From: Nitrospira sp.
GTDB taxonomy: Bacteria > Nitrospirota > Nitrospiria > Nitrospirales > Nitrospiraceae
Direction of reading: 5' to 3'
Assembly: GCA_030653545.1 (NCBI GenBank)
Contig: JAURZE010000038.1
Location: 62,001 to 126,000, forward strand
Length of the DNA: 64,000 nucleotides
Shown here: positions 438 to 20,075 of the stretch, one piece after another
Numbering within the stretch: position 1 is the first letter of the stretch
Layout: the number at the start of each line of letters is the position of its first letter
Program-made: the position numbers and the translations under genes
The notes under the pieces: generated by a model
Told to the model about the DNA's origin: nothing
The model's database searches: none
Seen by the model: the letters and a program-made list of their open reading frames with translations, nothing else

Positions 438-1043
438 ATGGACCCCTCGTCGCAACACGCCGCCTCAAACATTGACCCAAAGCTGCTGGCCCGGGTGGTC
501 AAGGGAGACCACCAGGCATTCAGTCAGCTCTACGATCAATCCAGTACGCTCTTGTATACGATGGCACTGCGCATTCTCGGCAATCGCGATGAAGCGGCTG
601 AACTCCTCCAGGATGTCTACCTGGAGGTCTGGCGCAAAGTCTCACGCTACGATGTCGGACGGGGAACCCCTGTAGCCTGGCTGGTCACGCTGACGCGGAG
701 CCGGGCCATCGATCGACTCCGGGCCCGGGCCTCCCGGGGCCTGAATAAGTCGACGGAATCCCTGGACAGCTCATCGGCCTCCCAGATCGCCGATCGAGGT
801 CCCAACCCTTTTGACGCCCAAGCCGATCAGGAAATTCGAACTTTGGTGGGAGGCGCGCTGGCGGCGCTCCCGCAAGCCCAACAACATGCGCTGGAATTGG
901 CCTACTACGAAGGGCTGTCCCACGCAGAAATCGCAGCCCGGCTGAATCAGCCGCTCGGAACCGTGAAGACCAGAATCAAGCTGGGCATGTCCAAGCTTCG
1001 GGAGTCGCTCCGGCGCTGTTGGGAACAGGGTGAACACGTATGA
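438..1043 (+). CDS. ECF-type RNA polymerase sigma factor
   Basis: This 201-residue protein is a sigma-70-family extracytoplasmic-function sigma factor. It has the two expected domains: region 2 around residues 25-95 (the LYTMALRILGNRDEAAELLQ stretch, then a WRKVSRYD segment and LTRSRAIDRLR) and a C-terminal region 4 helix-turn-helix around residues 135-190 (ALPQAQQHALELAYYEGLSH, then GTVKTRIKLGMSKLR). No extra domain is visible. The stop overlaps the start of the anti-sigma factor gene by ATGA, so the two are translationally coupled. The pairing resembles SigK/RskA systems. The signal sensed and the regulon cannot be read from the sequence. There is no clear Shine-Dalgarno before the ATG. Confidence 0.9.
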   Translation: MDPSSQHAASNIDPKLLARVVKGDHQAFSQLYDQSSTLLYTMALRILGNRDEAAELLQDVYLEVWRKVSRYDVGRGTPVAWLVTLTRSRAIDRLRARASRGLNKSTESLDSSSASQIADRGPNPFDAQADQEIRTLVGGALAALPQAQQHALELAYYEGLSHAEIAARLNQPLGTVKTRIKLGMSKLRESLRRCWEQGEHV

Positions 1044-2059
1044 CCCACGAAGAACTCGAAGAAGCCGTCCCGCTGTATGCTGCCGGCGCGCTCGAACGCT
1101 CCGAGCGGCAGGCGCTCGAAGCCCATCTGCTCTCGGGTTGCGTCTCGTGCCATACGGCGCTCAAGGAGTTCCAGTCGGTAGCGGCCATTCTGCCGTTCGG
1201 ATTGAGTTCGGCGCCGGCTCCGCGGGCCCTGAAAGCGAAAATCATGGCCGCGCGGACGCCGACCGCTATCGCCGAAGATGCTCAAGACAAAGTCGACGTG
1301 AAGCCAAGCCTGGAACCGGGCGAATGGATGAACCATCTCTTCCCTCCGGAATCCGCAACCGCGCCGAGATCGTTTGGGTGGGCCTTAAGCTTCGCCGCAT
1401 TGGCCATTCTCTCCATCGGAGGCTACCTCGCGTGGACCTCCTACACGCAAAACGTCACCGGCACCGCCGTTGTCCAGCAGCTCCAAGCGGCTTCGGATGA
1501 CCAGACGAAGAAGGTCGCCGCGCTCCAGCAGCAACTGGACGAGCGGGAACGCACGATCGTTCAAATGAAGGAAGAGTTGCAGCAACGCACAACCGACTCA
1601 ACAGAACTGAAGGATCAGCTCATTCAACGCGAGGCGGAGCTCGAAGATCTGAAGTTCCAATTTGCTGCGCGCGGGGGAGTGCCGCCTGCCAACCGTGAAC
1701 CGGAAGATGAGCTCGCCGCCCTACTCCGCGTTCCGAACGCAAAAGCCGTCTCACTCAATGGATCAGACATGGCCAAGCAAGCGTCCGGCATGCTCGTCTA
1801 CGATGCCCGGACCAAGAAGGCCTGGCTCTACGCCATGAATCTTCCGGAATGCCCCAACGGCACCACGTATCAACTCTGGGCCATCAATGACAAGCCGGTC
1901 AGCGTGGGAACCTTCCATATGGACAGCGGTGAAACTGCGCATCTCCTGGTCAGCCGGGTCCCGGAATTCTCCAAGACCAAAAAGTTTGCCGTCAGCCTTG
2001 AGCCTTCAGGGGGCCGTCCCACGCCGACCGGTCCGATCTATCTGGTCAGCCAGTCGTAA
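1040..2059 (+). CDS. membrane-anchored anti-sigma factor, RskA-like with zinc-finger N-terminus
   Basis: This 339-residue protein is the predicted partner that holds the preceding ECF sigma factor inactive at the inner membrane. The N-terminus carries an H-x3-C-x2-C signature (AHLLSGCVSCH, about residues 29-39), as in zinc-binding anti-sigma domains. A single transmembrane helix follows at about 113-133. A long Gln/Glu/Lys-rich coiled coil (about 145-210) leads to a periplasmic RskA C-terminal domain (about 225-339, with YQLWAIND and the SLEPSGGRPTPTGPIYLV end). Known relatives are released by regulated proteolysis. The coiled coil between membrane and sensor domain is longer than in the simplest RskA proteins. 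Confidence 0.85.
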   Translation: MTHEELEEAVPLYAAGALERSERQALEAHLLSGCVSCHTALKEFQSVAAILPFGLSSAPAPRALKAKIMAARTPTAIAEDAQDKVDVKPSLEPGEWMNHLFPPESATAPRSFGWALSFAALAILSIGGYLAWTSYTQNVTGTAVVQQLQAASDDQTKKVAALQQQLDERERTIVQMKEELQQRTTDSTELKDQLIQREAELEDLKFQFAARGGVPPANREPEDELAALLRVPNAKAVSLNGSDMAKQASGMLVYDARTKKAWLYAMNLPECPNGTTYQLWAINDKPVSVGTFHMDSGETAHLLVSRVPEFSKTKKFAVSLEPSGGRPTPTGPIYLVSQS

Positions 2060-2654: not shown

Positions 2655-3455
2655 TCATCCGTTGCGTGTTGCGCAGGGATTGATCGCCCAATCGAATCCT
2701 TGCGCTGCAACCGCACCGACCCATCCGGGTCCGCAATCCAGGGTCTTCACGACCCAGGGTACTTGTGACTGTCCTGCGAGTCGCACGGGCACTCCGTCGC
2801 GATCCGATCCGTTTGACCAGTCGATTTCACAAGCCTGCAGCGAGGCTAATCCTACCCCTTCGGCTTTCAGAACTGCTTCTTTCGCAACCCAGTAGTGAAA
2901 GAACTCCGAATTGCGTGATTCGGATACAGTGGATTGCAAGAGCAGGTGCTCGCGGTCGGAGAAGAATCGCTCAGCCAGCTTGAGCACTTCTACGTCCTCC
3001 CTGATCATTTCCAGATCTACCCCAACATCTCGACCCTGCGCGACCGCGACCATGGCGTTCCCATGCGCATGCGAGAGATTGAAGTTCAATATCGCACTCT
3101 CCCGCCGGAGACCTCCTAATGTCGGCTTTCCAGTGGGAGTCGAACCGAACTCGATGCGGGCCGGGTCGAGGCTGAGATAGAGCCCTAAGATGAACCGCAA
3201 CCCTCCGTGAGACAGCACATACCGCTCGCGGTCCTGCCGTCGAAGAAATCTGGCAGCCCTTGCACGTTCCTGTTGGTCAAGCCAATCCAGACACCGATCG
3301 TACTCGATACCCTCACCGGCTAGAGTCAGTGGCCAGAGATCGATCGTCGCGGCAGGAAGCGACCGACAGCGTGCGACAGGCGCCGTAAACAGGTCTCGAA
3401 TCGGGGAGAATTCCACACTGACACTCGCCTGCATCCTGACCGATCGTGGGTTCAT
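2655..3455 (-). CDS. Sfp-type 4'-phosphopantetheinyl transferase
   Basis: This 266-residue enzyme transfers phosphopantetheine from CoA to carrier domains. The diagnostic motifs are GVDLE (about residues 144-148) and WVAKEAVLKAEG (about 188-199), which carry the metal- and CoA-binding residues. An N-terminal FLRRQDRERYVLSHGGLRF segment is also typical of the Sfp/Gsp subfamily. It is the last gene of the minus-strand operon NRPS-ABC-PPTase, 34 bases after the ABC gene. The obvious substrates are the three carrier domains of the upstream synthetase. The length is normal for the subfamily and nothing appears missing. Confidence 0.9.
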   Translation of the reverse strand: MNPRSVRMQASVSVEFSPIRDLFTAPVARCRSLPAATIDLWPLTLAGEGIEYDRCLDWLDQQERARAARFLRRQDRERYVLSHGGLRFILGLYLSLDPARIEFGSTPTGKPTLGGLRRESAILNFNLSHAHGNAMVAVAQGRDVGVDLEMIREDVEVLKLAERFFSDREHLLLQSTVSESRNSEFFHYWVAKEAVLKAEGVGLASLQACEIDWSNGSDRDGVPVRLAGQSQVPWVVKTLDCGPGWVGAVAAQGFDWAINPCATRNG

Positions 3456-3489: not shown

Positions 3490-5124
3490 TCAGGAGGAGA
3501 CGACTTTCCCGTTCTCCAGCTTAATGACCCGATCGCCGAGATGGAAATACCGGTCATCATGCGTAATGACCACCACACTCTTCCCTCTCGCACGAAGTTC
3601 CGGCAATAGCTTCATATAAAAGACGTCCTTGTACTGCGGATCCTGATCGGCCGCCCACTCATCGAACACATACACCGGCCGGTCTTCCAGATAGGCCGTC
3701 AGCAGAGCCAGGCGTTTTCGCTGGCCCTGGGATAAATCGATTGTCGAGAATTTGCGCTCTCTCACCTCCACCTTGTGGTCAAGCTGCAAGCTGGAGAGAT
3801 ACGCGGCCGCCGATGTCCGAATTCGCTCTTCTTCAATGCCTAACAGTTTCTCAAATAAGTGAAAATCAGAAAACACCACCGAGAAATGCTCGCGGTACCA
3901 GTCGCGGTTGGCATCCGAGATCAAGATCCTATTTAAGGACACCTCGCCCGAGTGCGGAACATACAAGCCGGCAAGCAGTTTGACGAACGTCGACTTCCCG
4001 CTGCCATTTCCCCCGATCACAAACGACAATTCCCCGGGACACAGCTTCAGGCTGATGGGACCGAGTGAAAATGGGTCGTTGCCCCGACTGTCTGTCGCAT
4101 ATTGAAACGTGACTGACTCTAATGTCAGGGACTCCATCTTTCCTGCCGTCACCAGTGGAACGACGTTGTGGCGGCTCTCAGCGGGTGTGTCCAAGGACAC
4201 GCCCAATCTTTGAATATTCTCAAACGCGACCTGTCCGCGTTCAACCGTCGGCAGGGTGCCGATAATCCCCCAAATGGGAGACATCATATACAGCAATACC
4301 ACGACATACCCGATCAATGACTCCGTCGAAAGCGGAAACATCAAGGGAAATACAAACAGGATAATGCCAATCATGGAATAAAAGGCGAAATGGGACCAGG
4401 CCTCGGCAATCGCATATTGTCTGGAGGCATCGATACTGGTTCGCCGGTACAGATCGGCCGCTCCGTGGAGCTCCTGATCAATAAACTCTTTGCGCCTTTG
4501 CCTGTGAAGGGTCAACTCCTTGATCCCTTCCGTCAAAGACCGGAAATGTCTGAATAGCTGAGCTCTGGCCTCACGGGATGAGTAGATGGTCGAAAAGGCC
4601 CTGGTATGCAACCAATGATATCCCCACGCCCCCAGCAATGTGGCCGTCACGACGAGCAGAAACGTCGGCCAAGACAACCAGAGAAGATAGACCCCGCACC
4701 CGAGGACAATAGCCACATTCATCGCCAATTGCGGCAAACATTGGATCGACCACGCAAGCATGCTCACGTCGTCAGTCAGGGTGACCAGAATATTCGCATG
4801 ACCGTACGCCTCAGTGCGTCGATACGGAGATTTGAGAATCTTCTCACAGAGCGTCAGGGAGAGGTCGAGGGTCGTGTCTTGAGCAAAGCGCGCCAGGGTC
4901 AATTGCGACACAATCTGAGTGGCGAGCTTCCCTGCAACGACTGCGACAAACCCGAACGCCAGGAGAGCTTCCTGATCATGCCGCTGTTGCAGGACTCGAT
5001 TGATCAAGGCCAGCACGCCCGCGCTACAGAGTCCGGACACCACACCCACACTGACCATGGCGGCCATCACGGAACGTGAGCGCTGGAACAGAAACGAGAC
5101 GAACCCTGGGAGGCGGATGTTCAT
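3490..5124 (-). CDS. cyclic-peptide-export-type ABC transporter (permease-ATPase fusion)
   Basis: This 544-residue half-transporter has about six N-terminal membrane helices (roughly residues 15-290) fused to a C-terminal ATPase. The Walker A is GGNGSGKST (about 373-381), the signature LSQGQRKRLALL lies near 468, and the Walker B YVFDEWAADQDP near 485. The tail of the nucleotide-binding domain includes VVITHDDRYF. The architecture matches the SyrD/PvdE family, which exports non-ribosomal peptides across the inner membrane. Its ATG overlaps the stop of the synthetase gene (ATGA), so it is very likely translated with it and exports its product. The signature reads LSQGQ rather than LSGGQ, which is common in this family. 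Confidence 0.88.
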   Translation of the reverse strand: MNIRLPGFVSFLFQRSRSVMAAMVSVGVVSGLCSAGVLALINRVLQQRHDQEALLAFGFVAVVAGKLATQIVSQLTLARFAQDTTLDLSLTLCEKILKSPYRRTEAYGHANILVTLTDDVSMLAWSIQCLPQLAMNVAIVLGCGVYLLWLSWPTFLLVVTATLLGAWGYHWLHTRAFSTIYSSREARAQLFRHFRSLTEGIKELTLHRQRRKEFIDQELHGAADLYRRTSIDASRQYAIAEAWSHFAFYSMIGIILFVFPLMFPLSTESLIGYVVVLLYMMSPIWGIIGTLPTVERGQVAFENIQRLGVSLDTPAESRHNVVPLVTAGKMESLTLESVTFQYATDSRGNDPFSLGPISLKLCPGELSFVIGGNGSGKSTFVKLLAGLYVPHSGEVSLNRILISDANRDWYREHFSVVFSDFHLFEKLLGIEEERIRTSAAAYLSSLQLDHKVEVRERKFSTIDLSQGQRKRLALLTAYLEDRPVYVFDEWAADQDPQYKDVFYMKLLPELRARGKSVVVITHDDRYFHLGDRVIKLENGKVVSS

Positions 5125-8100
5125 GCGGACTGATTGTTGCGAGCCGGAGTTCCAATTCCTGCGGCACGCTCCGGACTCGTCTGGAGGTAATTCTGCAAAT
5201 GGCCGGCCAGTTCTTCAACAAACGGCGACACGAATAGACGTCCCGAATCCTCGGCTGGAATATGCACGGTGCAACTCGACCCCGCTCCTAGCTCCTGCCA
5301 GCGATGCCGAGTGTCCGGAATGACATCCTCGACATGCCGATTAGAAGCCACCACATTCACGACCTCTGCAGAAGTCGGCACCACATGATACCGGGCCACT
5401 GCAAGGAGCGTGGCTTCCGTCAAGCGCTGCACTTGGAAATCCCTGTCCTGGATATGATCCGTGAGGGACTGTGAAAATAAAGACAGTGCGACCTGAGTCT
5501 TGCGTGTAAGAGTCACCCACCACTCGTTCATCGGTAACCGCGAGATGCCTCGGATATCTCCGACAACCTTGCCCAGCACGATCATGGACATGAAGGCTTT
5601 CGCGACCAGACGATGCTTATACCTGCTGTAAGAATCAGGATGCCACGTGTCCATCATGAAGAGAGTGACCTGGCAACCCAGCGCTGTGAGCTGCCTGGCC
5701 ATTTCATAGCCAATCAGCCCTCCGGTACAGACTCCCCCGATCAGATATGGTCCATCAGGATGCATGCGCCGCACTTCCTGCACATAGTGAGCGGCCATCT
5801 CCGACACGGAGATGAACGGCGTTTCCTTACCATCGAGCCCTCTCGCCTGCAGTCCGTAGAGCGGCTGGTCCGTCCCGAGAAGACGTGCCAGCTTGGCAAA
5901 GACCAGCACGTTTCCTCCGACACCCGGCACCATAAACAACGGCACTCCGGTTCCGCTGGGCTGTATCGCGACCAGAGACTGCCACGGGGGAACCCAACTC
6001 GCTTTGGTCAACACAGACGCAAGCTCGGCTATCGTGGGAGCTTGAAACAACGTGGCCAAGGGAAGCTGTTTCCCAAACACGAGTTCCAGCTGATAAAACA
6101 GCTGCGCGGCCTTAAGTGAATGTCCGCCGAGATCAAAGAAATTGTCGTGAATTCCGATGTCCTGCATCCCAAGTACCTGTTGCCACAACGCCGTCAGCTG
6201 GACCTCCATTCCATTTCGAGGCCCGACATAGGGCTGGCCGGCCGTATGGCTCGTCATCTCCGGCGGAGGCAAGGCACGCACATCAATTTTCTTATTGGCC
6301 GTTAAGGGGAATGCGTCAAGGAACACAAAGAAGGAAGGCACCATATACTCCGGCAGCACCGCTCGTAGAAAGGAACGCAGTTCTTCCGCTCCCGCATCCT
6401 GTCCGTCCTGCAAAACCAGATATGCCGCCAGCTGCTTCAGGCCGTGCTGATCGTCCCGTGCCGTTACAACCGCTTGTTTGATCTTGGTGTGGCGACTGAG
6501 GATGGCCTCGATTTCGCCAAGCTCGATACGGAATCCCCGGATTTTCACCTGATGATCAATCCGGCCCAGATGGACAATTTTCCCATCGGTTCGATAGCGT
6601 CCGAGATCACCGGTCCGATAGAGCCTGGCAGCGGGATGAAGTGAGAACGGATGAGGGATAAATCTGTCTGCCGTGAGGTCCGTGCGGCCATGATATCCCC
6701 GCGCCACCCCATCCCCTCCGATATAGATCTCTCCGGCTACACCGACCGGGACCGGCTGTAAATAGGGATCGAGCACATACACATCCGTATTCGCGATCGG
6801 ACGACCAATCGTGATTTCCGGAATATCCGAGCTGATTCGCTCGACGGTCGACCAGATCGTCGTTTCCGTCGGACCATACATGTTCCAGAGCGCTTTGGTT
6901 CGATCACGCAACGCGATCGCAAGATCCTGCGGGAGCGCCTCGCCTCCACAGAGAGCGGTCAACGACGGACTCCCGGTCCATCCCGCCTCAAGGAGAAGCC
7001 GCCAGGTTGCGGGAGTCGCCTGCATGATGGTCGGCTGCACTCGTTCGAGGGTGTCACGAAGCTTATGTCCGTCAGTTGCAACCGCTCGACTGACAATCTC
7101 AACCCGCCCTCCGACAAGGAGTGGCAGATAGAGTTCCAACCCCGCGATGTCGAACGACAGAGTCGTGACGGAGAGAATGATGTCTCCCCGAGTACAGCCC
7201 GGCTGGCGCTTCATGGACCACAGGAAATTCATCAGGGAACGATGCCGGATTTCCACACCCTTCGGTTGCCCGGTCGATCCTGAGGTATAGAGTATGTACG
7301 CAAGATCATCGGCTGAGGCCGAGGACGGGAGGTTATGCTCGTCGTCTGGAGAAAAGACGTGCCCCTCGCGATCAAGGCACCAGGTACGACACGATTGACC
7401 ACTGAAACGATCGGCTAACGGGCTAGTCGTGATGACGAGCGGGGCTCCGGAGTCTTCCACCATAAACCTGACGCGATCGCGCGGATAATCCGGATCCAGC
7501 GGGACATAACACCCTCCCGCCTTCATCACCGCAAGCAACACCGGAACCATATCCACTGACCGCTCCAGACACACGCCGACAGCCACCCCCGAAGAGACGC
7601 CGATTGCCCGCAAGGCTCGCGCCAACTGGTTCGCCTTCCCGTTGAGCTGACGATACGTGAGAACGCGCTTATCCATCGAAACAGCTACGGCTTCAGGATG
7701 GTCCTCAGCCTGTATTTCAATATGCTCCGGCAGACAGTCCGTGTGTGGATACTCAGCCGTCGTCCGATTCCACTCATACAGGATGCGTGACCGCTCTGTT
7801 TCCCCAAGCATTTTCAGCTCGGACACTCGAGCCTGCGGGTTCGACATCGCACTCTCGATCAACGCCAGATAATGTCCGGCAAAGCGCTCAATAGTCTCGC
7901 GCACGAATAGCGCTGAATTGAAGGTGAAGTACGCCTTCTTCGCGACTTCCAATTCGATGGACAGACTCAGATCGAACTGGGCAGAGCCAGGCTCGACCTC
8001 GAATGGCTCCCACTCCAACCCATAGAGTTGGATATCTCCAATCGGAGCATTGGCCATGTTGAATAACACCTGGACCAACGGGGCCATACTCGCATCACGT

Positions 8101-11100
8101 TCGATCTGAAGACTTTCCACCAGTTTGTCGAAGGGATAGTCCTGGTTGGCAAAGGCACCCAACGCAGCATTCTTGACACGCTCCAGAAAACCTTCAAACG
8201 AAGGATTGCCGCTGACATCGACTCGTAACGCCAAGGTATTGACGAACGTTCCAATCAACTGCTCCATCAGCATATGCGTCCGGTTCGCAATCGGACAGCC
8301 GACGGCCAGATCCACCTGCCCCGTATAGCGGCTCAAGAGCAGCTGGAAGCAGGCTAACATCGTCATAAAAGGGGTCACGTGTTGTTCGGCACTGAACTGT
8401 TTGAGTCGCTGGATCACGGAATCCGGAATATCTACCGCGCACAACCCTCCCTCGAAGGTTTGGACGGCCGGACGAGGAAAATCTGTCGGAAGGTGCAGGA
8501 TAGGTAGATGCTCCAGCGTTTTTGTCCAGTACTGTTCTTGAGCCGCTAACACTGCTTCCGTCATACACCGACGCTGCCACACCGCGTAGTCCGCGTATTG
8601 GATGGGCAAGGTCATTTCGGGCAACGGTTGCCCCTGACATAACGCATTATAGTATGCGGCGAAATCGCGTCCGAGGATTCCAAAGGACCATTGATCCCCG
8701 ACAATATGATGAAGATTGAGGACAATCAGATGGTCTTCTTGATCGAGAGTGATCAGCGAGATTCTCGCGAGCGGCCCTTTCTCGAGATCAAACGGACGAG
8801 CCCCTTCCTGTTCGGCAATTCGTCGGGCTTCTCCCTCGCGTTGATCCGCTGGAATTCTGCGGAGGTCGATTTCAACCAGGTGAGGAGACTCCCAGGACGC
8901 AATTCGTTGCTCCAACCCGGCCCCGGTCATCGCAAAGGTTGTTCGAAACGCTTCGTGGCGTTGGGAGAGCAAATTCACGACCTGCCGGATCACCGGTACG
9001 CTCATTCCTCCCTTATGTCGAGAGACGAAGAGGAGATTATACGCAGTCGCCTCCGGCGCCAATTGTTGAACAAACCACATGCGCTGCTGGGAGAATGACA
9101 GCGGCAACGACCCGTCACGCGAGACCGGCACGATCGGCGGCAATGGTGACGGAGCATTCCCTCGATGCTGTTCCACTCGAATCAACTCAGCGACACCGGC
9201 AATCGTTGGTGACTCGAACATCGAGCGCAACGGAAGCTCCACGCGGAACACTTCGCGAATGCGCGAGATGACCTGTGTGGCCAAGAGAGAATGGCCGCCC
9301 ATGGCAAAGAAGTTTCGATGGATGTCGATCGTCTGCTCTCCCAGCACCTCCCGCCAAATCTCAAGCAGGCCCTGTTCAATCGGATCGCGGGCCCGAACGG
9401 AGGCTGTGTCGCTCCGGTTCTCGCCCAGCGTATGTTGTTGAAGAGCCAGACGATCAACTTTGCCATTGGGTAGGTACGGAATGGCATCGACCACACACAC
9501 GGCGGCAGGAACCATGTAGGAGGGAAGTGTCCGCTTGAGAAGCTCATGCAAATAGGGACTCGTTGATCCCGGCACCTGATCGGACATTACAAAGGCAATG
9601 AGGCTTGGCCCTGTCGTCATGTCCTCTCGTACCACCACGGCAGCGGCGCGGACACCCGGTAACCCGCTCAAGGCAGATTCGATGTCCCCAAGCTCAATCC
9701 GATACCCCCGCACTTTCACCTGGCTGTCCGCACGCCCGACATATTCGAGATTCCCGTCTTGACGCATCAGCCCAAGATCACCCGTCTTGTAGAAACGGGT
9801 TCCCGGCACAAACGGATTCGAAAGAAACTTGGCACTCGTCAGTTCCGGAAGATTCAGATACCCTCGTGCCAAACTAGCCCCGCCGATCACAATCTCTCCC
9901 ACCACCCCGACAGGAATCGGGGACAACCCTTCATCAAGCAAATAGATGGCGGCCCCGGCGATGGGCGTTCCTATTGGAATGCGCCCTCCCAACTCAGTTC
10001 CAGTCGTCTTATACACAGTCGACCACACCGTCGCTTCCGTCGGCCCATACTCGTTATACAGCGCCGCCTCCTGAAGCCGTTCATAGTGCCGCCGCACCAG
10101 CAATACCGGGAGACTTTCTCCGGCGGACACCACCACCCGAAGTGACTGCAGTGCGGCTGCTGCCACGTCACGCAGCATCGCCTCGTATAACGACGGCACG
10201 AGTACAATGTGAGACACCTGATGCCGGGAGATCAGCGCACCGATTTGAACCGGATCCCGATAATTGTCTTCCGTTGGAATGACGAGAGTCCCAGCGTGGA
10301 GCAGCGTCCAGAACATGCTCGTCACGGACCCGTCAAACGCAATCGGAAAGGTCAGGAGGCAACACTCGACCGGATCTTTATAATACTGTAGGCGTGCCAG
10401 AAGGGAATGCAGGAGCGCCCCGTGCGTAATCTCGACGCCCTTGGGTCGCCCCGTCGACCCGGAGGTGTAGATCACATAGGCGGCATGGTCGATCCCCAAT
10501 TGCGGCCATGCCACGTGTGCCTCGTGACGCTGAGCTTCTCCTGCGAGCGACTCCAATTCAATAACCGGCCCACCACCGTATGGAAGCGTCGCCCGCAGAT
10601 GCTGCTGCGTCACCAGGAGCGCGACACCGGCATCCTCGAGAATCAATCTCTGCCGTTGCTCCGGCGCACTGGCATCCAAGGGCACATACGCAGCGCCGGC
10701 CTTCAGAATGCCAAGAATCCCGATGAGACTTGAGACCGATCGATCGACGCACAACCCTACCCGGACGTTTCTTCCTCCCGTGACTGCATACACCGCACTG
10801 GCAAGCTGATCTACACGCACAACGAGCTCGCGATAGGACAGCCGGTCTTCTCCGCACACCACCGCCGTCCTTTCGGGATCTTGCTTGATGCGAGCCTCGA
10901 TCATCGGCAGGATGGAAGTGGCCTGCTGCACGTCGACCGTAGTCCGGTTCCACTCGACCAAGAGCTGCCGTCGTTCGTCTTGCGTCAGCAGCGGGAGATC
11001 GAGCAGCCGCGAAGCGGGGTTTGCAATCAGGCCGGAGAGAATCATTTCGATTTGGGCAAGCATGCGGTCGACCGTTCCACCGTCGAACAATGCTCGGTCA

Positions 11101-14100
11101 TAGAGCATCACCAGCTCAAGCCCCTCGATCCCATTGACGACCAATAGCGTGAGATCAAGCTCGACGGCCACATCATCAAGCGGGACATGTCTGACCGACA
11201 ATCCCTCGAGATGCAACTCGCTGAGAGGATCGTCCTCCCATACGATCATGACATTGAACACATGCGGCGAGTCTGCGGCTCTTCGTCCCTTGAGCGCACC
11301 GATCACTCGTTCGAACGGAACATCTTGATGGTCATAGGCATCGCCTACGGTCTGGCGAGCGCGACGGAGGAGCTGCTCGCCGGTCTCGACATCGGAGAGG
11401 TCCATGCGCAAGGCCACGGTATTGGCGAAATACCCCACCACATCCTGCCAGTGCGATTGACGACGATTCGCCAATACCGTCCCAACGACGATATCGGTTG
11501 TCCGGGTGGCGCGTTGGAGCCAGGCGCACAACGCGGAATAGACCGCCATGAATTTGGTCGTGCCCTGCCGGCTGCAGAACGCTCCCAGGTCAGCCACCAT
11601 CGATTCGGGAAGCGCGCGGATTCTTGATCCTCCCTGGAACAACGGCACACGCGGGCGCGGGCGGTCAGCAGGCAGGTCCAGTACCGATGGCATGCGGTCC
11701 AACTGGCGCTGCCAGTATCCCAGCTGAGCGACGTATCGTTCACTCTCCAACTGGTTCCTCTGCCATTGGCTGAATTCAAGATACGATCGCGGCGAACGCG
11801 CGGGAATCATCGCCGGATCTTTCGGTCGCGACCTGTACTGTTGCGTAAGTTCCCGGCACAGCAACCGCAAGGACCACCCATCCGAGACAAGGCGATGAAC
11901 GGTTAGGATGCAGAGGTGCTCCCCATCTTCTATCTCAAGAAGAAATGTCCTGAGCAAGGGTGGGCACCCCAAATCAAATGGAACAAGGACTTCTTCCCGA
12001 ATCCTCCGGCGGATTTCTGCGTCACGGTTTGAAGGAGAGAGATCGCGCAAGGAGGCCCGGGTGACCTTCGCGGCGGCTTTGGTCGAAGTCGCCTGATAGG
12101 GAAGCTCCCCAACTGAGGCAAACCCCATCCTCAATATGTCATGCCGCTGTACAAGCTCCTGGATGCTGGCATCGAAGGCCGGAAGATCTAACGGTCCGGA
12201 CAGCCTCATCCCGATGGAAATATGATTCAACGCGCTGCCAGGCTGTACTTGCTCCAAAAACCATAACCGCTCTTGACTGCAGGAAAGCGGAGACCGACCC
12301 ACTTCCCCGTCCTCTGCCTGCAGGCCTCTCCCCTCAGATTCCGGCCCGCCGGCCTGGCCACGCAAGCTCCGCTCTGGTCCGAAAGCTGGCTCCGAGAGCG
12401 CCGTCTGAAGATAGGCCGCGAGATCCCGCACCGTCCCCTGGCCAAATAACTGGCCGAATGAAAGTTCAACCCCGCACTCCTGTTCAAGTCGATTCTTGAC
12501 CAGGCTGGTACCGAGGGAGTCTAACCCAATATTGACCAAGGGCATTCCCGCTTCAATTTTGGAGACGGGGAGCCCTGACTGTTCTGCGAATACACGCTGC
12601 ACATAACTTTCAAGCCCTTCGCCGCGCTTCAACAGGTCGTGAACCTTTCGAGAGCCTTCAGCGATCGACCCCGAACTAGTCACGGCCGCTTCAGCCGGGA
12701 GCATCAGTGTGGAAAGCACGGCCAGCGACTGTTCCAGATATGCTTTTCGACAGGCTTGTCGTTGCACTTTTCCGCTTGAAGTCTTGGGAATCACCCCATG
12801 CCGCGCCAGGACAACCCCCCACACCGGCACTTCAAACCGTTCTGCCAGAGTGACGCGAACGGCCGTCGCCACCTCTTCAGCCCGCAGCTCCTGTTGGCGA
12901 TCGACTTCAAGCACAATAATCAAACGCTCGACCTCGTCCACTTCGACTGAGAAAGCCACGCATCCACCGCTCCGTGCCATGGGGTGGCAGACTTCAACGG
13001 CTGCTTCCAAGTCTTGAGGATAGATATTCCTCCCGTTCAGAATGATCAGATCTTTGAGACGACCGGTAATGACGACCTGTCCTTCACTGAAGAACCCCAA
13101 GTCTCCCGTACGGAGAAAATGTTCCTCGGGCCGACCGGAAACCTGAGCGTTGAATACCTCGATGGTCGCCTCAGCCCTCCGCCAATACCCTAAGGCCACG
13201 CTAGGACTGGACACCCAGATCTCTCCGACTTGGCCGGCGGCACATTCGAGGCCACTACCCGGTTCGACGATGATGACCTGCGAACCTGGAAGCGGACGAC
13301 CACACCCCACAAGCTCGCGTACACCCACATCATCCGGCCTTCGGACTTCGACCCGATGTGATTCAAGCGCAGCCGAATCCACCGTGATCATATGGGGTGC
13401 TTCAGCCCGCGCGGTGCTGGACACCACCAGGGTGGCCTCAGCCAACCCATACGCCGGCATGAATGCATTCCCCTTGAATCCGTGGGGGGCAAACACTTGG
13501 GTGAACGTATTGATGGTCCGGTGATGAATAGGCTCGGCTCCACAACTGGCCACCGCCCAGCGCGCAAGATCACCGGACCAGCCCGGTTGTTTTTGAAAAG
13601 CCTTCACACAAGCATCGTAGGCAAAGCTCGGAGCGCCGCTATGCGTGATATCCCACCGGTCGATGGCTTCAAGCCAGCGGAGTGGCCGCCGAAGAAATGT
13701 AAGCGGTGATAAGAGGAACGCCGGAATGCCCCCATATAAGGGTGCAAGAATCCCGTGCACCAATCCATAGTCGTGAAAATACGGGAGCCAGCACAACGAG
13801 CGGCTCTCCGCATTGACTCCTGCTGTCTGATGAATAGCTTCACATTGAGCCAGGACGTTGCGGTGACTGACCATCACACCACGTGGTGTCGCCGTTGAAC
13901 CTGACGTATATTGCAAATAGGCGAGATCCGAGATCGGCGAACGGTGTTCCAGGCTCGGCCACCCCTCACCCGTCGGTTGATCAGTGGCGAGCCATTGGAC
14001 CTGGCGATCCGGTGCCACGAGGGATTGCTCCGCACACAGGGTCTGGATGCCAGCCGTCGTCAGAACGAGCGCGGCTTGCGCATCATCCAGGATGGCCTGT

Positions 14101-14429
14101 AGGCGCGAGAGGCTGTGCTTGCGCCTGATGGGATCCGGCGCGGGAGCTGGAACGGGAACGAGGCCGGCTTGGATACAAGCCCAGAAGGCCACGACCACTT
14201 CGAGCCCAGGGGGATAAATGAGGAGCGCGCGAGTACCCGGCTCAGCGCGCGCCCCCAGAGCCATTGCAAGCACGTTCACTTCACCTGCAAGTTCAGCCCA
14301 GGTAAGTTGACGGTCTATCGCAACAGTATCTTTGAGATAGGCATAGGCCAACCCGCCGCCGGCCTGCTCACAGCGGTAGGCAAATAATTCGACCAGGGTG
14401 CGGATTGAACTAGGTACTGATTCGCTCAT
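5121..14429 (-). CDS. lipopeptide-type NRPS: FAAL-PCP-C-A-PCP-C-A-PCP-TE
   Basis: This giant synthetase of about 3,102 residues is numbered from the ATG at 14429. An in-frame TTG at 14474 would add 15 residues, and neither start has a good ribosome binding site. Approximate domains: fatty-acyl-AMP ligase 1-585 (YTSGSTATPRGVMVSHRN, APSFAYD); carrier 1 with Ser638; condensation 1 at 715-1140; adenylation 1 at 1170-1660; carrier 2 with Ser1714; condensation 2 at 1780-2210; adenylation 2 at 2230-2720; carrier 3 with Ser2771; thioesterase 2825-3085. Read by eye, specificity residues give about DGTLVAEVW for A1 (closest to a Tyr code I remember) and DILQLGMIW for A2 (a Gly code). The expected product is an N-acyl dipeptide. 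Oddities: condensation 1 reads HRLVSDG (H845, R846) instead of HHxxxDG; condensation 2 reads HHIVGDQ; the thioesterase nucleophile motif is GVCTG, with Cys2901 in place of Ser. Exporter and phosphopantetheinyl transferase genes follow in the operon. Confidence 0.92.
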   Translation of the reverse strand: MSESVPSSIRTLVELFAYRCEQAGGGLAYAYLKDTVAIDRQLTWAELAGEVNVLAMALGARAEPGTRALLIYPPGLEVVVAFWACIQAGLVPVPAPAPDPIRRKHSLSRLQAILDDAQAALVLTTAGIQTLCAEQSLVAPDRQVQWLATDQPTGEGWPSLEHRSPISDLAYLQYTSGSTATPRGVMVSHRNVLAQCEAIHQTAGVNAESRSLCWLPYFHDYGLVHGILAPLYGGIPAFLLSPLTFLRRPLRWLEAIDRWDITHSGAPSFAYDACVKAFQKQPGWSGDLARWAVASCGAEPIHHRTINTFTQVFAPHGFKGNAFMPAYGLAEATLVVSSTARAEAPHMITVDSAALESHRVEVRRPDDVGVRELVGCGRPLPGSQVIIVEPGSGLECAAGQVGEIWVSSPSVALGYWRRAEATIEVFNAQVSGRPEEHFLRTGDLGFFSEGQVVITGRLKDLIILNGRNIYPQDLEAAVEVCHPMARSGGCVAFSVEVDEVERLIIVLEVDRQQELRAEEVATAVRVTLAERFEVPVWGVVLARHGVIPKTSSGKVQRQACRKAYLEQSLAVLSTLMLPAEAAVTSSGSIAEGSRKVHDLLKRGEGLESYVQRVFAEQSGLPVSKIEAGMPLVNIGLDSLGTSLVKNRLEQECGVELSFGQLFGQGTVRDLAAYLQTALSEPAFGPERSLRGQAGGPESEGRGLQAEDGEVGRSPLSCSQERLWFLEQVQPGSALNHISIGMRLSGPLDLPAFDASIQELVQRHDILRMGFASVGELPYQATSTKAAAKVTRASLRDLSPSNRDAEIRRRIREEVLVPFDLGCPPLLRTFLLEIEDGEHLCILTVHRLVSDGWSLRLLCRELTQQYRSRPKDPAMIPARSPRSYLEFSQWQRNQLESERYVAQLGYWQRQLDRMPSVLDLPADRPRPRVPLFQGGSRIRALPESMVADLGAFCSRQGTTKFMAVYSALCAWLQRATRTTDIVVGTVLANRRQSHWQDVVGYFANTVALRMDLSDVETGEQLLRRARQTVGDAYDHQDVPFERVIGALKGRRAADSPHVFNVMIVWEDDPLSELHLEGLSVRHVPLDDVAVELDLTLLVVNGIEGLELVMLYDRALFDGGTVDRMLAQIEMILSGLIANPASRLLDLPLLTQDERRQLLVEWNRTTVDVQQATSILPMIEARIKQDPERTAVVCGEDRLSYRELVVRVDQLASAVYAVTGGRNVRVGLCVDRSVSSLIGILGILKAGAAYVPLDASAPEQRQRLILEDAGVALLVTQQHLRATLPYGGGPVIELESLAGEAQRHEAHVAWPQLGIDHAAYVIYTSGSTGRPKGVEITHGALLHSLLARLQYYKDPVECCLLTFPIAFDGSVTSMFWTLLHAGTLVIPTEDNYRDPVQIGALISRHQVSHIVLVPSLYEAMLRDVAAAALQSLRVVVSAGESLPVLLVRRHYERLQEAALYNEYGPTEATVWSTVYKTTGTELGGRIPIGTPIAGAAIYLLDEGLSPIPVGVVGEIVIGGASLARGYLNLPELTSAKFLSNPFVPGTRFYKTGDLGLMRQDGNLEYVGRADSQVKVRGYRIELGDIESALSGLPGVRAAAVVVREDMTTGPSLIAFVMSDQVPGSTSPYLHELLKRTLPSYMVPAAVCVVDAIPYLPNGKVDRLALQQHTLGENRSDTASVRARDPIEQGLLEIWREVLGEQTIDIHRNFFAMGGHSLLATQVISRIREVFRVELPLRSMFESPTIAGVAELIRVEQHRGNAPSPLPPIVPVSRDGSLPLSFSQQRMWFVQQLAPEATAYNLLFVSRHKGGMSVPVIRQVVNLLSQRHEAFRTTFAMTGAGLEQRIASWESPHLVEIDLRRIPADQREGEARRIAEQEGARPFDLEKGPLARISLITLDQEDHLIVLNLHHIVGDQWSFGILGRDFAAYYNALCQGQPLPEMTLPIQYADYAVWQRRCMTEAVLAAQEQYWTKTLEHLPILHLPTDFPRPAVQTFEGGLCAVDIPDSVIQRLKQFSAEQHVTPFMTMLACFQLLLSRYTGQVDLAVGCPIANRTHMLMEQLIGTFVNTLALRVDVSGNPSFEGFLERVKNAALGAFANQDYPFDKLVESLQIERDASMAPLVQVLFNMANAPIGDIQLYGLEWEPFEVEPGSAQFDLSLSIELEVAKKAYFTFNSALFVRETIERFAGHYLALIESAMSNPQARVSELKMLGETERSRILYEWNRTTAEYPHTDCLPEHIEIQAEDHPEAVAVSMDKRVLTYRQLNGKANQLARALRAIGVSSGVAVGVCLERSVDMVPVLLAVMKAGGCYVPLDPDYPRDRVRFMVEDSGAPLVITTSPLADRFSGQSCRTWCLDREGHVFSPDDEHNLPSSASADDLAYILYTSGSTGQPKGVEIRHRSLMNFLWSMKRQPGCTRGDIILSVTTLSFDIAGLELYLPLLVGGRVEIVSRAVATDGHKLRDTLERVQPTIMQATPATWRLLLEAGWTGSPSLTALCGGEALPQDLAIALRDRTKALWNMYGPTETTIWSTVERISSDIPEITIGRPIANTDVYVLDPYLQPVPVGVAGEIYIGGDGVARGYHGRTDLTADRFIPHPFSLHPAARLYRTGDLGRYRTDGKIVHLGRIDHQVKIRGFRIELGEIEAILSRHTKIKQAVVTARDDQHGLKQLAAYLVLQDGQDAGAEELRSFLRAVLPEYMVPSFFVFLDAFPLTANKKIDVRALPPPEMTSHTAGQPYVGPRNGMEVQLTALWQQVLGMQDIGIHDNFFDLGGHSLKAAQLFYQLELVFGKQLPLATLFQAPTIAELASVLTKASWVPPWQSLVAIQPSGTGVPLFMVPGVGGNVLVFAKLARLLGTDQPLYGLQARGLDGKETPFISVSEMAAHYVQEVRRMHPDGPYLIGGVCTGGLIGYEMARQLTALGCQVTLFMMDTWHPDSYSRYKHRLVAKAFMSMIVLGKVVGDIRGISRLPMNEWWVTLTRKTQVALSLFSQSLTDHIQDRDFQVQRLTEATLLAVARYHVVPTSAEVVNVVASNRHVEDVIPDTRHRWQELGAGSSCTVHIPAEDSGRLFVSPFVEELAGHLQNYLQTSPERAAGIGTPARNNQSA

Positions 14430-14801
14430 GCAGGCAAATAGAACAGCAGGAAACAATGAATCCGAATGACTCAATAATGGACAGATCCTATGCCGGATCA
14501 GAAGAATTTTCTACCGCTACGGAAGGATAATACGGACCGCTGCATTCCAGAAGAGATTTCCTGTTCTGCGCACAAAACAGGCCCAGGAGACTTCACGCAA
14601 CGTCATGATTCAGTGGAACAATTCATCCTACTTGGAGATTCCCAAGGCACCGTGATTCTTACCCCAATGATTTCGTGGTTAGATCGTCCACGATGAGAGA
14701 AAACTCATTGAAATATCATGCCTCTCACTGTAAGCTCCCCCCATAGCTTGATCGGTCAGGGGCGCGCGTCTTTCGGTGCCTCCCAATTCAGCACGTTGCC
14801 A
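14430..14801. other. intergenic region upstream of the NRPS operon
   Basis: About 370 bases between the synthetase start and tRNA-Ser. It should hold the promoter of the minus-strand operon. I see one striking dyad (14560-14581) and a weaker one at about 14673-14693 (TCGTGG/CCACGA arms), but no clear -35/-10 pair. A 68-codon plus-strand frame at 14490-14696 lacks supporting features. Confidence 0.5.
14560..14581. promoter_or_regulatory. perfect 22-bp dyad, possible operator of the NRPS operon
   Basis: CCTGTT and AACAGG form perfect 6-base arms around a 10-base spacer, about 130 bases upstream of the synthetase ATG. The form suggests a dimeric regulator site. The spacing is not that of the E. 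coli LexA box (CTGT-N8-ACAG; here N12), and it is 2 bases longer than a lux box. No regulator gene is adjacent. Confidence 0.4.
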
Positions 14802-17922: not shown

Positions 17923-19275
17923 CTAGCAATTCGTTCGCTCTTCAGCCGGAGGTCTCGTATCCTTTCCGCTGCCCACTCGCACTTCGATCCGACCCACGCC
18001 TTTCACATTGGCGCAGAGATCGCCGAGCCCCGGTGTAATCAGACGATAGGGCCCGCCCTTTCCATCGGGCAATGGCTCGCCGTTGAGCTCGTAAAGCAGG
18101 ACGCCAAAATCTTTGGCCTGTTGGAGCGTGAGCGTAGCCGCATACTTTCCGTCAATTGAATGAAACGTCACATGATCGGCCTCGATCGCCAGTGCCGGCA
18201 CATCGAGCAAGCCCTTCACCTTGATCGCCTTCCCCGTCATACCCGGCATGACGGCGCTGACGTCTGCCACATGATGCTCCGCCGGAAGTTGCCGGAGGGC
18301 CGCATAATCAAGTGAGACCGGCTGCACCACCGCCCCGTCGATTCGCACGACTCCAGAACCCTTCTTGCCCTGCTCAGTGATCGTCTTGATCATCGCCGTC
18401 ATCGCCTCGTTCACGGGAGTCGGAATGCCCAATTCTCGCCCTTTCTGCACAATGTACCCGTTCAAATAGGCGATCTCGGTCTGCCGTCCCGCTTTCCAAT
18501 CGTCGTACATCGACGTGTGAATATCCCGGATCTCCTGCGTGGCTTTGACGACCCGCTCCGCCATATCCGCCGGCAACGGCACCTTGACCGCCGCTGAGAC
18601 CGCGGCGACTTCATCGACGATCTGATGGATCACCCGCAGCATTTCCGGATGATCCAAAGCCTTGGCCACCTTGTCGTCGATCAGCACCGTGATCGGATTG
18701 AAGACGCAGTTCCAGCACATCTTCTCCCACTTGCTCCGGCGGATATCTTTCGAGAGATGACAGGGAATACCGGCAGCCGTGAAAAGCTCCTTGATCTTGA
18801 GCACGCGCTCGCTCTCATGCCCCATCAATTCGCCGATCGCCACCGCACCCTTTTTATAGTGATCGATCACCCCGGGCTCGGCAATTTTCGAATAGATGAA
18901 GGCCACGCCGCCGACGACGCAGTCACGCGAGGTGCGTGCGATGATCCGGTCTTCGGTATCGATGCCGTTCTGCAAGGTCAGGATGACGGTCTTCTCCGTC
19001 AACACCGGTTCGATCTGCGCCATGACCTCATCAAGGTCGAACGCCTTCACACCGAGAATAACCAAGTCAGGCTGGGGCAATTCCCTGGGATCCGCCGCGG
19101 CCTGCGGATGGACCGTGAACGTCCCGCTCGCACTGCGGATCGTCAACCCGCTCTGCTTCACCGCTGCCAAGGTCTTCGGCCTGAGGAGAAACGACACGTG
19201 AGGATTGTTCTTGGCGAGATGCGCGCCGAAAAATCCGCCCACTGACCCGGCACCGACGACTAGAATGTTCTTCAT
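17923..19275 (-). CDS. panE: 2-dehydropantoate 2-reductase fused to a molybdopterin-oxidoreductase-like domain
   Basis: The protein is 450 residues from the ATG at 19275, which has an AGGGAG ribosome binding site; upstream codons in the frame are unlikely to be used. The N-terminal 310 residues are a ketopantoate reductase: NAD(P)-binding GAGSVGGFFGAHLA at 7-20, LQNGIDTED near 105, RRSKWEKMCWN near 180. It would reduce ketopantoate to pantoate in coenzyme A synthesis. The remaining 140 residues are extra (KGLLDVPALAIEADHVTFHS, LYELNGEPLPDGKGGPYRLI, CANVKGVGRIEV) and resemble the sulfite-oxidase-type molybdopterin-binding fold. This domain is not part of normal PanE and probably does not bind a complete cofactor. 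coaX, another step of the same pathway, is 8 kb away. Confidence 0.82.
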   Translation of the reverse strand: MKNILVVGAGSVGGFFGAHLAKNNPHVSFLLRPKTLAAVKQSGLTIRSASGTFTVHPQAAADPRELPQPDLVILGVKAFDLDEVMAQIEPVLTEKTVILTLQNGIDTEDRIIARTSRDCVVGGVAFIYSKIAEPGVIDHYKKGAVAIGELMGHESERVLKIKELFTAAGIPCHLSKDIRRSKWEKMCWNCVFNPITVLIDDKVAKALDHPEMLRVIHQIVDEVAAVSAAVKVPLPADMAERVVKATQEIRDIHTSMYDDWKAGRQTEIAYLNGYIVQKGRELGIPTPVNEAMTAMIKTITEQGKKGSGVVRIDGAVVQPVSLDYAALRQLPAEHHVADVSAVMPGMTGKAIKVKGLLDVPALAIEADHVTFHSIDGKYAATLTLQQAKDFGVLLYELNGEPLPDGKGGPYRLITPGLGDLCANVKGVGRIEVRVGSGKDTRPPAEERTNC

Positions 19276-19334
19276 GTTCACTCCCTTATTTACGGACAGC
19301 GTACTATAGCAGGCGACCGAACTAGGATAAAATA

Positions 19335-20075
19335 GTGCGCATGAGTTCCACCCCGCTGCATGAGGCGCAATCCCGCCTCGCATCCGCACAAGCCATCACG
19401 ATCTTGACCGGGGCCGGTGTCTCCGCCGACAGCGGCGTGCCGACATTTCGCGGAATCGACGGACTATGGCGCAATTTTCGAGCGGAAGAACTAGCGACAC
19501 CGGACGCGTTTGAGCGAGACCCCAGGCTGGTATGGGAATGGTACAACTGGCGGCGGGAATTAATTGCCACGAAACGACCCAACGACGCTCACGTCGCCAT
19601 CGCATCATTGGAATCGCGCCGCCTCGATTTCTGGCTCATCACTCAAAATGTAGATGGCCTCCACAGGCAGGCCGGATCCACCCAGCTCTCGGAAATTCAC
19701 GGCAACATCTGGATGGTCCGTTGCACGGGATGTGGTGCGGCGACAGAGAACCACCAGGTACCGCTACCGCTCCTGCCCCATTGTGGACCGTGCGGAGGGC
19801 TCTTGCGTCCTCACATCGTCTGGTTTGGTGAATCCTTACATGAGGACGATCTTGCCCGCTGCGCACAACACCTACAGGCCTGTGATGTGCTGCTCGTAAT
19901 CGGCACTTCCGGCGTGGTCTATCCGGCAGCCGGGTTTGCCTCGATTGCAAAGGACGCCGGAGCCACGGTCATTGAAGTGAATCTCGACCAGACTCCCCAA
20001 TCAGACCTGGTAGATATTTCCTTGCGCGGCCGCGCGAAGGAGCTCGTCCCGCTTTTACTACAGGCGGGCAAGTAG
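19335..20075 (+). CDS. cobB: NAD-dependent protein deacylase (sirtuin class III, CobB-like)
   Basis: A 246-residue sirtuin that removes acyl groups from lysines using NAD+. NAD-binding GAGVSADSGVPTFRG lies near residues 27-41, the catalytic ITQNVDGLHRQAG near 106, and the HGN general base near 125. Four zinc cysteines are in CTGC (about 133-136) and CGPC (about 154-157). A YNWR motif (about 67-70) matches the Tyr-x-x-Arg pair that gives SIRT5 and E. coli CobB desuccinylase/demalonylase activity. I start at GTG 19335, since AGGAT at 19324 is well spaced from it; an ATG two codons later is possible. It overlaps the HAD gene tail to tail by 18 bases. Confidence 0.9.
   Translation: MRMSSTPLHEAQSRLASAQAITILTGAGVSADSGVPTFRGIDGLWRNFRAEELATPDAFERDPRLVWEWYNWRRELIATKRPNDAHVAIASLESRRLDFWLITQNVDGLHRQAGSTQLSEIHGNIWMVRCTGCGAATENHQVPLPLLPHCGPCGGLLRPHIVWFGESLHEDDLARCAQHLQACDVLLVIGTSGVVYPAAGFASIAKDAGATVIEVNLDQTPQSDLVDISLRGRAKELVPLLLQAGK

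Follow-up and report, generated by a model that had tools for sequence, protein, structure and literature searches.

A terminal thioesterase with a cysteine nucleophile and no evident catalytic histidine in a predicted lipodipeptide synthetase of Nitrospiraceae

The synthetase locus and its predicted product

The window, that is, the whole 64,000-nt stretch of Nitrospira DNA analysed here, derives from an assembly representing a 3.94-Mb genome whose relatives are Nitrospira. Its minus strand carries an open reading frame of 3117 aa (5121–14474) with a TTG start at 14474 and an ATG 15 codons in. The order of domains, as read from Pfam and NCBIfam models, is FAAL-ACP-C-A-PCP-C-A-PCP-TE, which identifies the protein, by its sequence, as a lipodipeptide synthetase. 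From the N-terminus, and all on the minus strand, these are a fatty acyl-AMP ligase (FAAL, 12705–14402; models PRK05850/PRK09192), an ACP with the motif NIGLDSLGT as the putative fatty-acid acceptor (12390–12602; Pfam/NCBIfam models), the condensation domain C1 (10980–12287), the adenylation domain A1 with the code DGTVVAEVWK (9435–10907), PCP1 (AMGGHSLLA, 9165–9392), C2 (HHIVGDQ, 7782–9110), A2 with the code DILQ(L)GMIWK (6270–7742) and PCP2 (DLGGHSLKA, 6000–6227), which would hand the chain to the terminal thioesterase (TE). The latter, delimited with PF00975 and an AlphaFold model, spans 284 aa including a C-terminal tail (5124–5975, folded part ~5175–5975).

The main conserved partners of the synthetase are an exporter and a phosphopantetheinyl transferase. 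A cyclic-peptide-export-type ABC transporter (3490–5124, minus strand; TIGR01194, 466 bits against a cut-off of 286) overlaps the synthetase stop by 4 bases and is kept in loci L065, L066, L067, L178–L182, L188 and L189, while a Sfp/HetI-like 4'-phosphopantetheinyl transferase (2655–3455, minus strand) is a neighbour in 34 of 40 loci. Four loci with Asn at position I of the TE, described below (L053, L054, L056, L059), have no ABC exporter beside the synthetase. Genes for an ECF sigma factor and an anti-sigma factor adjoin the cluster (438–2059, plus strand) and are kept in 11 loci. In one Nitrospira lineage, genes for Mla-type lipid transport (MlaD, MlaE, ATPase and auxiliary lipoprotein), found across L038–L064 (e.g., L054:10503–14172 and L042:17027–17836), adjoin the synthetase on the opposite strand and may be unrelated to it. 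Further along the window, an odd fusion reading frame (17923–19389, minus strand) joins ketopantoate-reductase (ApbA) domains to a molybdopterin-oxidoreductase domain.

The A1 code varies among relatives, being DGTxxAEVWK in most Nitrospira, DTEDIGTVAK in another genus, and DALFIGAVAK and others elsewhere; DGTxxAEVxK presumably resembles tyrosine codes, which we take as a lead only. On the other hand, the A2 code DILQ-G-IWK was found in all core members read (20-plus), including those outside Nitrospira, once position 278, sometimes shifted by automatic alignment (DILA for DILQ), had been re-read for the final codes. DILQLGMIWK is listed among glycine codes (PMC12283262), and the expected chain is a fatty acyl-X-Gly whose last residue is predicted to be Gly. 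Macrocyclisation through a side chain is not favoured, since the variable A1 code contrasts with a Gly code and a His-less TE that are both fixed, which argues against release via the side chain of X. A corallorazine-like system (PMC11342130) also makes a lipodipeptide ending in Gly; its release, however, depends on a reductase domain, and it was set aside as different.

The C1 motif reads HRxxxDG (HRLVSDG, 11877–11897, minus strand) in place of HHxxxDG, with Arg replacing the second His. Among complete members, the A1 code DGT..AEVW went with HR in 28 cases and with HH in one, whereas the other A1 codes went with HH in all seven and never with HR, a tally in which related sequences count repeatedly and which is correlative, not a test. 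The pattern suggests that, in the HR lineage, either the chemistry of C1 or the amine with which residue X accepts the acyl chain is unusual. Some modifying C domains are reported to have lost the second His (PMC11342130). The C2 motif (8691–8711, minus strand) is HHxxxDQ instead of HHxxxDG, as in nearly all relatives read, and HHxxxDY in L182.

Active site of the terminal thioesterase

Both the profile score of the terminal domain (72–76.9 bits against a cut-off of 26.4) and its alpha/beta-hydrolase fold, which VIA-align matched to NRPS TEs with Z 26 (7crn and 4zxh), place it in PF00975. Among solved structures, AB3403 of Acinetobacter baumannii (PDB 4zxh), likewise a C-terminal NRPS TE with a Cys nucleophile, ranked first in both profile (E 8e-46) and fold (Z 26). 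The TE lacks the GxSxG elbow typical of PF00975 and has Cys in its place, a known minority variant. This nucleophile, Cys83 of the TE in the motif GGVCTGGL (codon TGT, 5727–5729, minus strand), is invariant in 68/68 non-redundant core relatives, confirming the assignment made in an earlier note; it is residue 2916 or 2901 of the protein when counted from the TTG or the ATG, respectively, the choice of start accounting for the offset.

The same note had reported no evident catalytic His in the C-terminal segment, with Asp or Ser at the aligned place, and had proposed structure prediction to locate the triad. The stretch in question reads CTVHIPAEDSGRLFVSPFVEEL. The end of strand beta-8 and the loop where the His is expected, CTVHIPAEDSGRLFVSPF (5220–5273, minus strand), have D243/S244 at the His position. 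In the AlphaFold model, built from 71 aligned sequences (mean pLDDT 84.8, ~95 over residues 241–250), beta-8 comprises residues 235–239 and is followed by the confidently modelled loop P-A-E-D-S (240–244), devoid of His. Indeed, profile alignment to PDB entries laid the catalytic His of both AB3403 (LPGDH) and human FAS (IEGDH) on this very loop. In same-genus relatives, in 80 loci of named genomes and in further family members, the position after beta-8 was D, N, R, S, A and others, so that relatives and profile alignment agree with the first reading.

It could still be argued that an ordinary Cys triad is present and its His was missed through misalignment or an error in the sequence. The window TE does hold ten His in all, and a few members (L113, L134, L012, L016) have a His by chance near the canonical place. 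However, no His column is conserved across the TE domain in the 68 core relatives, which come from independent assemblies, H238 of the window, itself part of strand beta-8, is not conserved either, and the His of solved TEs aligns exactly on the modelled loop. We therefore consider a missed His very improbable. A frameshift or sequencing error was ruled out by the identical state in many independent assemblies.

All Ser-type TEs compared retain the catalytic His (45/45 by column count), as do seven unrelated Cys TEs in the sample; a stricter regular expression had called six Ser TEs devoid of His, at least one of which was a visible artefact (L106, GTHGHL), whereas the looser column count gave 45/45. 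Further substitutions accompany the loss. The His of the HPxGG motif (His17) is replaced by Pro in the clade (34/38, versus His in 39/40 other TEs), and comparison with 40 other TEs revealed as clade-linked changes Gly241 to Ala before the missing His, Trp111 and Thr222-Arg223, with a small residue in place of the catalytic His itself. The pocket has been remodelled as a set, well beyond the loss of one residue. AB3403, unlike the window TE, retains both its catalytic His (LPGDH) and HPxGG, together with a position-I Asp (PMC11298585).

By the criterion set in the note, a predicted structure with another His beside the Cys in ordinary geometry would have overturned its reading; His112 is the one real candidate for such a residue. 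After beta-6, the segment DTWHPDS (5631–5651, minus strand) contributes the position-I acid Asp109 (D/N/E in 33/20/15 across the clade), Trp111 and His112, and between beta-7 and beta-8 lies the motif DTR (residues 221–223; 5307–5315, minus strand), whose D and R occur in 68/68 and T in 66/68 core relatives, the outgroup being mixed. A non-canonical hydrolase could use His112, a carboxylate or Arg213/Arg223 as base or Cys polariser, and would yield the free acid acyl-X-Gly, the linear acid being the simplest product of an NRPS without tailoring genes. The invariance of Trp111, Asp221 and Arg223 (each 68/68) speaks for such an enzyme, and His112, three residues past the position-I acid, is the best-kept His near the active site (57/68). 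Nonetheless, in the other 11 of 68 it is L, P, Q, Y, V or F, including whole lineages with Asn at position I that are still under purifying selection (L051, L055, L060), and Asp221 is common in ordinary TEs as well (22/40). Hydrolysis with a substitute base thus stands as a somewhat doubtful explanation, yet one of real weight.

The pocket was also compared with the strained-ring-forming TEs of obafluorin (ObiF1) and sulfazecin (SulM), to which the earlier note had likened it. In both, as in the window, the Cys sits in an integrated NRPS TE, and the chain is loaded by transthioesterification to it. Their triads, Cys1146/Asp1254/His1284 in ObiF1 (PMC6668435) and Cys2818/Asp2926/His2956 in SulM (PMC11298585), nonetheless place Asp after beta-7 (position II) and His after beta-8 and serve to form four-membered rings, whereas the window clade conserves neither residue: its position II reads S-x-R, and neither E216 nor D217 of the window is kept among relatives. 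Moreover, the C-terminal residue is predicted from the A2 code to be Gly which, having no beta-hydroxyl or beta-amine as nucleophile, would preclude closure of a four-membered ring. A strained-ring product is barely credible on these grounds, and this part of the note was rejected. The TE is hence devoid of two catalytic residues of PF00975, belongs to that family by score and fold, and is not of the ObiF/SulM type.

Distribution and selection of the His-less domain

Scanning the phylum yielded matches in 70 of 396 genomes, 67 of them in the family of the window (Nitrospiraceae), spread over four genera and mostly encoding an open frame of ~3100 aa. The first tree placed all Cys TEs without the His in a single group, L078 excepted (SH-aLRT 92). 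A wider tree, from an alignment in which the Cys column and the region of the His had been masked, gathered 53 rows in one clade (SH-aLRT 97), two of them tagged 'C_H' for a His two residues beyond the canonical place; these are quick trees of related rows, and the counts are not independent. Many of the loci are metagenome bins, and L066 (Rhizobacter, on a contig of 5 kb) may have been assigned to the wrong bin. A contig labelled Nitrosospira (L064) falls inside the Nitrospira TE clade and is probably a misassigned bin.

Outside the main clade, L155 and L078/L165 also have Cys TEs without the His. L155 and L165 form a separate pair, which suggests that the His was lost more than once, independently, after a Ser-to-Cys change.

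The TE domain is under purifying selection. Its dN/dS is ~0.1 among close members of the group of the window and 0.1–0.28 elsewhere, similar to the other domains, and identity reaches 92–94% over the TE core versus 90–91% over the whole TE, the core being among the best conserved parts. These values bear on a further explanation, namely that the domain is degenerate or merely parks the chain, with the Cys structural or chain-holding, no catalysed release, and discharge occurring spontaneously or in trans. With the His, a conserved acid and the His of HPxGG all lost, the domain does resemble one whose catalytic site is decaying. However, four residues (Cys83, Trp111, Asp221 and Arg223) do not vary between genera, and neither the conservation of the core nor the dN/dS of the TE fits decay. 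As for release in trans, no free-standing hydrolase is conserved beside the cluster in the loci compared. We accordingly judge degeneration unlikely.

Release of the chain from the lone cysteine

Because a TE without its His is still kept by selection, the product is probably released by an unusual route. The earlier note had raised this for the window on account of the Cys and the missing His; the suggestion holds and, with purifying selection added, extends to the whole clade, the mechanism itself being inferred. The reading that we favour, with confidence a little short of even, is that the clade TE was rebuilt around a lone Cys, which accepts the chain through thioester exchange and then, with no water activated by a His, passes it on, most likely to an amine.

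As deduced from the domains, the FAAL would load a fatty acid onto the ACP, C1 would couple it to residue X, and C2 would add Gly, leaving acyl-X-Gly on PCP2. Cys83 would then accept the chain from the phosphopantetheine thiol, an exchange near energy-neutral for which a strong base should not be obligatory; transthioesterification to a TE Cys has been described as energy-neutral (PMC6668435). The resulting S-acyl enzyme would not be discharged by activated water because there is no His to form it. Release to an amine, or to another nucleophile that needs little base, is hence the most economical reading. Such an amine may be external or bound through the clade-specific Arg, and the product would leave via the adjacent ABC exporter.

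Several characterised systems illuminate single steps of this scheme. Relative to an oxoester, a thioester on Cys is more activated towards aminolysis, whereas the two are similar in hydrolysis (PMC11536411). In BulbE, the Cys TE that forms the indolylamide of bulbiferamide, it has been argued that the acyl-thioester helps a poor amine to attack; unlike the window TE, BulbE keeps its His, the proposed triad being Cys961/Asp988/His1097 (PMC11536411). The acyl-chain shuttles CmaE and LgnA move a thioester-bound chain between carriers and do not hydrolyse it, but they are free-standing, and LgnA has a full Ser77-Asp184-His212 triad (PMC8748450). On the other hand, ObiF1 deprived of its His loses much activity (PMC6668435), so a Cys TE can need this residue, which counts against His-free release. 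Likewise, the loci compared share no conserved gene near the synthetase that would supply an amine, and this counts against release to an amine.

Taken to its full extent, the favoured reading describes an NRPS TE without any catalytic His, in which a lone Cys in a rebuilt pocket takes a lipodipeptide by thioester exchange and passes it to an amine, downstream of a C1 domain that also lacks a catalytic His (HRxxxDG); what the assembly line makes throughout Nitrospiraceae would then be a lipoamide and not a free acid. We advance this combined proposal tentatively, as a possibility. No report of a His-less NRPS TE emerged from the open-licence literature searched, which is weak evidence of absence. 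That literature regards the catalytic His as indispensable to thioesterases, also to every Cys-type TE that it describes. This large natural clade, in which the Cys has been retained under selection and the His has not, offers a ready-made way of testing whether thioester exchange with a reactive nucleophile can take the place of a general base. A genome survey of activated sludge reported NRPS clusters in Nitrospira and called the biosynthetic potential of its main sludge species uninvestigated (PMC9765116). The synthetase that hosts this TE is widespread in Nitrospiraceae, which are among the dominant nitrite oxidisers.
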